DNA from: Bacteroidota bacterium
GTDB lineage: Bacteria > Bacteroidota > Bacteroidia > Bacteroidales > JAAYUG01
Direction: 5' to 3'
Length of the DNA stretch: 64,000 bases
NCBI GenBank assembly: GCA_029571215.1
Contig: JAKPTE010000016.1
Location: 124,001-188,000 of the forward strand
How positions within the stretch are numbered: the stretch's first letter is position 1; each line of letters starts with the position of its first letter. The translations under genes were made by a program, and so were the position numbers. The notes beneath the pieces were generated by a model. That model was given only the letters and a program-made list of their open reading frames with translations. It was not told the origin of the DNA and made no database searches. Of the stretch, positions 45,257-46,383 are shown in pieces.

Positions 45257-45661
45257 GAGTTTTAGGATAAAAAAACGCTGGATATTGATAAAATTAAGTA
45301 ATTCATTCATTAACAACTTGTTTTATATTGTAAAATGAGGCTTTTTAGTGGCAAGACGTTCTAAAAAGCCGAGAAATTAACAAGTTTTCAACAGGTAAAA
45401 ACGCAAAAACTGCATTAACAAACGATTTTTCAGGTCAAAAAATATGAAAAGCCCAATTATAAATTCCAAAAATGAACTCATGTGGTGAAATATCTGACAA
45501 TCGGGAATTCCGGAAAAAATTGATCCGGATATCCTGAAAAAAGATATCAGTGGTTTTGGCGTGGTTCATCGGTGAACCTTTGAAGCAAAACCTTACCCGG
45601 CCAAGCCGGGTTTCCTTTAAATGGCGGATGGTATGCCAACCGATTCATTTTTGCAATGTAT

Positions 45662-45692
45662 TTTGTCGGGTAATCAAAAGGTATTATTTTTG
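45662..45692 (+). promoter_or_regulatory. Promoter of tRNA-Ser: TTTG-N19-TATTTTTG
   Basis: TTTG 45662-45665, TATTTTTG 45685-45692, 7 nt before the tRNA; same 19-nt spacing as the tRNA-Asp promoter. Confidence 0.6.
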
Positions 45693-45699
45693 CAGAACC

Positions 45700-45788
45700 G
45701 GAGAAATGGCAGAGTGGTCGAATGCGGCGGTCTTGAAAACCGTTGTCCCGCTACCGCGGGACCGGGGGTTCGAATCCCTCTTTCTCCG
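45700..45788 (+). tRNA. tRNA-Ser (anticodon TGA), CCA not encoded
   Basis: GGAGAAATGGCAGAGTGGTCGAATGCGGCGGTCTTGAAAACCGTTGTCCCGCTACCGCGGGACCGGGGGTTCGAATCCCTCTTTCTCCG with a long variable arm. Confidence 0.96.
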
Positions 45789-45824
45789 CAGCCGCAATGA
45801 ATCCCGCGTAAGGCGGGATTTTTT
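45773..45824. repeat. 52-bp direct repeat, copy 1 (tRNA-Ser 3' end + terminator)
   Basis: AATCCCTCTTTCTCCGCAGCCGCAATGAATCCCGCGTAAGGCGGGATTTTTT, identical to 45953-46004. Confidence 0.97.
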
Positions 45825-45826
45825 TT
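45800..45826 (+). terminator. Rho-independent terminator after tRNA-Ser
   Basis: AATCCCGC-GTAAG-GCGGGATT followed by a T run. Confidence 0.85.
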
Positions 45827-45952
45827 GCATGACGAATCCCGACGTAAGCTCTGCTTACAAGAGGGATGAGTCATGGAAAAAAGGCAGACGAAGCGCCAGC
45901 GGAGGATGCTATTGCGGCTGCAGGATTCCCCATCCGGGGATCACCGTTAGGT

Positions 45953-46004
45953 AATCCCTCTTTCTCCGCAGCCGCAATGAATCCCGCGTAAGGCGGGATT
46001 TTTT
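45953..46004. repeat. 52-bp direct repeat, copy 2 (orphan tRNA-Ser 3' end + terminator)
   Basis: Exact 52-nt match to 45773-45824, offset exactly 180 bp. Confidence 0.97.
45980..46004 (+). terminator. Second copy of the tRNA-Ser terminator hairpin
   Basis: AATCCCGC-GTAAG-GCGGGATTTTTT. Confidence 0.75.
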
Positions 46005-46383
46005 ATAGGCCTGCGTCTGATGCAAGCTCGCTTGCAGAAGAACGAAGGACTATAATTGCGGCCATCCACTTCTTGATGTTCGCAGGCTTGCATAGGGCTT
46101 TGGGTTGGCAAAGGGAAACGATTAATGTGGTTGCTGGCAATGATACAGGTAAGTTCCAAGAATTTTGACCAATCCAAACCAAAGTTGAATATGCCGTACT
46201 GGCATTTCACCAATAACCCTCCGGACTTGCAAAGAAGAAGGCTAAGTGCTCATTCCGGAAAAAGACCATTTTAATCAACAGGAAACGGATTCAGGCGAGC
46301 CTTTACGAAATGTATGTCCCAGGATCTGAAAGTACCGGAACAGCATTAAGAATTATTATTTTTACAATAAAGAACCGTGCACT

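Follow-up and report, generated by a model that had tools for sequence, protein, structure and literature searches.

A gene-free folding cassette behind tRNA-Ser(UGA), probably a mobile element of tRNA gene 3′ ends in Bacteroidota

The 3′ ends of tRNA genes are classic landing sites for mobile DNA, usually attributed to the integrases of large elements; the att footprint normally left is a second, directly repeated copy of the tRNA 3′ end. In contrast, the unit described here is gene-free, measures about 165 bp, and occurs behind many tRNA genes throughout a phylum, the Bacteroidota, where it builds arrays. Like the tRNA-integrating elements that use a tyrosine integrase (PMC8138268), the cassette duplicates a tRNA 3′ end and leaves the tRNA intact, but it has no integrase, no large cargo, and no identical T-loop overlap; a ~165 bp unit is too short for an integrase gene. 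Casposons, with their Cas1-type casposase (PMC6977970), also target tRNA 3′ ends and leave a short duplication. Theirs is 14–15 bp, whereas the cassette repeat covers 17–21 nt within the tRNA, starting at nt 58; the cassette also contains no casposon genes, and its ends are not simple terminal inverted repeats. REP/REPIN sequences and TnpA_REP (RAYT, an HuH Y1 transposase with a Bacteroidetes subclass, 2.6; PMC6006769) offer another parallel, as short, palindromic, gene-free, dispersed units that fold as single strands and are presumed to be mobilized in trans. The cassettes differ from them in being four-way junctions of ~165 nt, placed at tRNA or tmRNA 3′ ends together with tRNA-end copies. 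Integron attC arrays likewise involve folded single strands conserved in structure, an array anchored at one site, units bounded by a repeated site, and a turnover compatible with growth at the anchor. The cassette, however, has no cargo gene and is anchored at a tRNA gene, and we noticed no attC core sites. It shares a covarying, RNA-like fold with the structured RNAs of Rfam 15, but no Rfam 15 family scored above threshold at gathering and relaxed settings (best sub-threshold E = 0.65, unrelated). In kind, then, the cassette is near REP/MITE-like elements and cassette arrays, with an anchor, fold and duplication of its own.

The window analyzed here is a stretch of 64,000 nucleotides from a Bacteroidota bacterium. 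An initial annotation had reported an exact 52-bp duplication of a tRNA-Ser 3′ end with a 180-bp offset, and we confirmed both copies and their spacing (45773–45824 and 45953–46004); identity over 52 bp makes a chance match impossible. The final 17 nt of tRNA-Ser(UGA), from T-loop nt 58, form the first part of the repeat; the other 35 nt are the start of a cassette. Two tandem cassettes (~165 bp unit) follow this tRNA gene, the first complete and the second decayed. The features of the locus are:

45700–45789, + strand: tRNA-Ser(UGA), an intact host gene and the anchor of the array
45773–45824, + strand: 52-bp direct repeat, copy 1
45773–45789, + strand: proximal copy of the duplicated 17 nt, tRNA nt 58–74 (AATCCCTCTTTCTCCGC)
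45790–45958, + strand: cassette 1, complete (full-length covariance-model match)
45789–45798, + strand: X, the 5′ side of the helix that closes the four-way junction (MFE fold; own-versus-other pairing in relatives)
45799–45821, + strand: P2, terminator-like hairpin followed by a U-tract (MFE fold)
45822–45881, + strand: P3, long arm with apex GTAAGC/GCTTAC (MFE fold)
45883–45910, + strand: P4 hairpin (MFE fold)
45911–45920, + strand: X′, the 3′ side of this helix, ATTGCGGCTG (MFE fold)
45937–45958, + strand: terminal hairpin, GGGATCACCGTTAGGTAATCCC, whose 3′ arm AATCCC opens the second tRNA-end copy
45953–46004, + strand: 52-bp direct repeat, copy 2
45953–45969, + strand: distal copy of tRNA nt 58–74
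45970–46074, + strand: cassette 2, decayed (partial model match; sequence reading)

The cassette holds no gene. Its sense strand folds into a four-way junction followed by a terminal hairpin, GGGATC...AATCCC, and the 3′ arm of this hairpin is the tRNA T-arm sequence. The window copy has the same fold as its relatives, with the U-tract of P3 paired to an A-rich tract downstream in the MFE fold. Cassette 1 matched a covariance model built from relatives with a score of 78 bits (E = 9e-18; 3e-17 on a whole-genome search). An inverted partner of the repeat had also been described, and it is present (GCAGCCGCAAT, 45788–45798; ATTGCGGCTGC, 45911–45921), except that the first arm begins at 45788 and not at 45787. 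The diverged, similarly organized segment noted beyond copy 2 proved to be a second, incomplete cassette: a covariance model that contained no window sequence matched it at 45977–46074 (E = 0.00025 to 0.0015). This cassette keeps X, P2, P3 and a short X′ (46054–46061) and lacks P4 and the terminal hairpin. In contrast, the short reading frame proposed for the interval between the repeats did not stand, being part of a mechanically called ORF (45550–45954) that crosses the whole tRNA gene; the frame is thus no gene. A coding role for the short frames whose peptides had been quoted was likewise rejected, because they are pieces of a mechanical ORF drawn across the tRNA. The conserved feature is the fold of the tRNA-sense strand, not a protein.

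Several comparisons support this fold. Arm X paired far better with the X′ of its own cassette than with those of others (scores of 12.7 and 5.5), and its own X′ was the best partner in 54 of 69 cassettes. In an alignment of 17 sequences, we counted 84 double-changed cells against 24 ± 4 in shuffles, and shifting the pairing partners abolished the covariation signal. The structure was partly drawn from these same 17 sequences, so the shuffle is the fairer control. Four-way junctions appeared in the MFE folds of 48/69 cassettes but in only 173/1380 shuffles, and mean fold energies were −62.8 and −34.4 kcal/mol, respectively. From a plain MAFFT alignment, RNAalifold recovered mainly the closing helix, the P3 apex and the terminal hairpin. 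Mismatches were G-T more often than A-C (46 vs 10), those in the P3 arm were far more often G-A than C-T, and the sense strand was the stabler of the two in 60/69 cassettes. We concluded that selection acts on the tRNA-sense strand, whether in RNA form or as single-stranded DNA. Terminal hairpins at the loci matched by the model vary yet keep their pairing (ACC/GGT, AAC/GTT, AGTG/CACT), and GGGAT-C...A-ATCCC is constant in most of them; the 5′ strand GGGAT is complementary to the ATCCC T-strand of the tRNA.

The same architecture, with unrelated internal sequence, was found in two other families of the order. What stays constant across these families is the terminal hairpin, GGGATCACCG-N-AGGTAATCCC, directly before the tRNA-end copy. 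BLAST with the cassette yields little beyond the genus, since relatives keep the structure but not the sequence; two BLAST matches (L023 and L024) were discarded as unrelated. An exact-pattern scan of 84,980 species genomes for the terminal hairpin returned 108 stretches, nearly all titled Bacteroidota; Roseivirga pacifica, Chryseolinea serpens and a Gramella strain are among the cultured bacteria represented. An intact tRNA lay upstream on the same strand in 84 of them: Ser in 71 (isoacceptors UGA, GCU, GGA and CGA), Arg(UCG) in 6, Val in 5, and Lys and Phe in 1 each. Across these 84 loci the distance from tRNA to hairpin was mostly 128–155 bp (81–85 bp for Arg), and two further stretches were at tmRNA. 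The scan pattern includes AATCCC and so favors tRNAs with that T-strand; for this reason we also ran a covariance model, built from relatives and blind to tRNAs, on 396 genomes of the phylum. It matched in 24 of these (about 6%). At 26 of the 29 model loci a tRNA was at the expected place, most cassettes starting no more than a few nt from its 3′ end, and these loci added Leu, Cys, Ala and other Arg tRNAs. An occupancy of ~6% fits a mobile element, and it limits the depth of the comparison. The cassette is thus not unique to its locus in the window, and its recurrence behind many tRNA genes Bacteroidota-wide bears out the earlier suggestion of a tRNA-targeting element over that of a local accident. 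The other part of that suggestion, which took the ~130 bp for what remains of a larger att-site element, is not supported: a distance of 128–155 bp from tRNA to hairpin is normal for family members, no long autonomous form was seen, and the two junctions lack the identical T-loop overlap that a T-loop tyrosine integrase would leave. Single pattern matches also occurred in records labeled Rickettsiales (L130), Ignavibacteriales (L116) and Chlorobiota (L059); these may be mislabeled or mixed bins, or may reflect a wider spread.

Within the genus, the same site was compared in one congener, G001, where the same cassette, 83% identical, stands behind tRNA-Ser(UGA). That contig stops inside the second tRNA-end copy, and another G001 contig opens in a cassette end and continues through a copy of the tRNA end, then a degenerate second cassette, into the orthologous downstream gene. 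An array has thus probably broken the assembly. At tRNA-Ser(CGA), G001 has a cassette and the window's genome has a truncated cassette start; behind the remaining two of this genome's four tRNA-Ser genes there is no cassette. An empty-site comparison with the draft G002 found no intact orthologous tRNA-Ser. Cassettes at different tRNAs of one genome had a mean identity of 0.80, compared with 0.56 between genomes, where the isoacceptor had no effect (same, 0.559; other, 0.550). Gene conversion among tRNA-Ser loci is another process that could increase likeness within genomes. At an orthologous tRNA-Arg, the congeners G327 and G430 carry two and three cassettes: one is common to both (88% identity), those nearest the tRNA are different in the two genomes, and G430 has one that G327 lacks. 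This pattern fits insertion beside the tRNA with older units pushed outward, although loss may also account for it. The likeness within genomes and the differing arrays of congeners together argue for a dispersing, non-autonomous, tRNA-targeting element and not for local slippage. Where a tRNA-end copy is kept after the hairpin, it begins at nt 58 and in most loci spans 17–21 nt; a recognizable copy is kept in only about a quarter of tRNA-linked loci, so that a clean target duplication could be demonstrated at a minority of them. About a dozen loci have a 5′-truncated self-copy after the hairpin, mostly beginning at the P3 apex, indicating that copying also starts at hairpin tips.

We consider it probable that the cassette is a short, non-autonomous mobile element that targets the part of tRNA genes from the T-loop to the 3′ end. 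Each insertion would add one ~165 bp cassette and one copy of tRNA nt 58 to ~74; because a tRNA-end copy comes with every insertion, the tRNA would remain intact, and repeated insertion would build a tandem array behind it. An enzyme encoded elsewhere would recognize the folded strand, and the same enzyme would cut or prime at nt 58 and at the tRNA 3′ end. The cassette would then be copied or inserted there, guided by GGGAT/ATCCC complementarity, and it is likely that the element-borne GGGAT arm, pairing with the ATCCC strand of the tRNA, is the guide. The intermediate would be a single strand or RNA, and the terminal hairpin presumably has a role. The route may be Cas1-like or based on a reverse transcriptase. 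A Y1 transposase is an unlikely mobilizer: a search of 13 cassette genomes did not detect Y1_Tnp (PF01797) in four that have several model matches each (G347, G327, G430 and G304, near-complete genomes among them), and the model found no cassette (E ≤ 0.1) in 24 Y1 loci. No conserved GTAG/GTGG foot of the REP/REPIN type was apparent 5′ of the hairpin in the cassette consensus.

A T-loop tyrosine integrase is also unlikely to move the cassette, because the overlap differs between the two junctions. Such an integrase requires an identical overlap on both sides, and here the T-loop TTCGAAT of the tRNA is replaced at the distal junction by a sequence of the CACCGNAGGTA type. The same observation weighs against reading the locus as the att scar of a phage or ICE with a tyrosine integrase, as the direct repeat of the tRNA 3′ end might suggest. 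Neither an integrase nor a large cargo was seen, and a single viral contig among 2.9 million was matched; we rejected a phage origin on that count and hold an att scar to be extremely improbable. Slippage between short homologies, duplicating the segment in tandem at this one locus only, would explain why the 52-bp copies are identical, and some arrays elsewhere do consist of 5′-truncated repeats from a hairpin apex. However, the same cassette type at many tRNA genes, phylum-wide, is not confined to one locus or lineage, and slippage might enlarge arrays but not disperse them. As an account of the locus it is very improbable, though it could be true solely for the identical 35 bp that open cassette 2. 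A conserved structured RNA or bidirectional terminator, selected to serve the tRNA transcript and not mobile, would agree with the strong structural covariation and with the terminator-like look of P2 and its U-tract on the sense strand and of P4 and its A-tract on the other. Such a function leaves no role for a duplicated tRNA end or a T-arm-complementary hairpin. It also sits poorly with the tandem units, with the patchy occurrence (24/396 genomes), with the two bare tRNA-Ser genes of the window's own genome, and with cassettes that resemble each other by genome and not by tRNA locus; we judge it unlikely.

Two further proposals concern origin and mechanism. Descent of the cassette from tRNA-targeting GIY-YIG homing elements draws on four observations: both GIY-YIG genes detected in the window's genome lie among tRNA fragments, the tRNA fragments found in tandem GIY-YIG units have a hairpin within a tRNA loop, a tRNA adjoins 10–11 of the 49 GIY-YIG loci sampled, and one gene (L088) lies between tmRNA and a terminal hairpin. 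Yet GIY-YIG genes are near only 3 of the 108 cassette stretches, the GIY-YIG loci tested (tRNA-linked units included) gave no cassette by the covariance model, and GIY-YIG units use other tRNAs and break points than cassettes do; this descent appears quite improbable. The same 3/108 count shows that GIY-YIG is not generally a carried gene. The other proposal is a variant of the mobility model in its mechanism and not an alternative to mobility. Here a putative tRNA-cassette transcript would be reverse-transcribed with the tRNA T-strand as primer, making the cassette a bacterial counterpart of tRNA-headed SINEs. The modification m1A58 in the T-loop stops reverse transcriptases, and copies do start at nt 58; in addition, their 3′ end is fixed at AATCCC, their 5′ ends are truncated variably at hairpin apices, and the sense strand shows a wobble pattern. 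There is a slim chance that the T-strand primes in this way through complementarity to the 3′ end AAUCCC of a transcript with the conserved fold, that RT-stopping structures (T-loop nt 58, P3 apex) set the 5′ ends of copies, and that arrays at tRNAs result. No reverse transcriptase is linked to cassettes, however, and replication template switching at hairpins yields similar products, and we rate RNA-mediated copying as distinctly unlikely.

We found no description of this cassette family in the open-licence literature searched. Provisionally, then, these short, gene-free, intricately folding cassettes at Bacteroidota tRNA 3′ ends form a family that extends across the phylum and seems not to have been described before. 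If mobile, it implies an activity in Bacteroidota that recognizes a folded strand beside tRNA genes. Cassette arrays also explain repeats that are able to break assemblies and seed spurious ORFs, and the unit is small enough for a direct test of movement.

Some neighboring sequences are worth recording. In L119, a Flavo-1 RNA (RF01705, 4641–4756) lies just upstream of a tmRNA with cassettes downstream; its separate place led us to dismiss it as a cassette match. In L224 (reverse complement, 718–2427), tRNA-Arg is separated from its cassette array by 1.7 kb of inserted DNA that holds a helix-turn-helix-like gene plus a further ORF and terminates with a copy of the tRNA 3′ end. This looks like an ordinary tRNA-site insertion superimposed on the array. 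The two GIY-YIG genes detected in the window's genome are at C46:108893–109114 (L018) and C33:42146–42343 (L017). One is inside a run of tRNA-like repeats in which a CCCGC..GCGGG hairpin replaces the anticodon arm, and the contig ends within this run; the other is directly 3′ of tRNA-Met, itself preceded by partial tRNA-Met copies. Elsewhere in the order, tandem GIY-YIG genes form units that include incomplete copies of tRNA-Val, -Asn, -Phe or -Arg. In every copy one of the tRNA loops contains a short palindrome, and a single intact tRNA is retained (3′ type in L169, L171, L172, L175 and L188; 5′ type in L173, L177 and L178). The sole candidate for a gene-bearing unit that we saw is in Lentiprolixibacter aurantiacus (L088:703–1000), with GIY-YIG between tmRNA and a cassette-type hairpin. 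Lastly, at tRNA-Arg(UCG) genes of Flavobacteriaceae (L109, L120), a GIY-YIG gene is on the 5′ side and a short cassette (83–85 bp) on the 3′ side.
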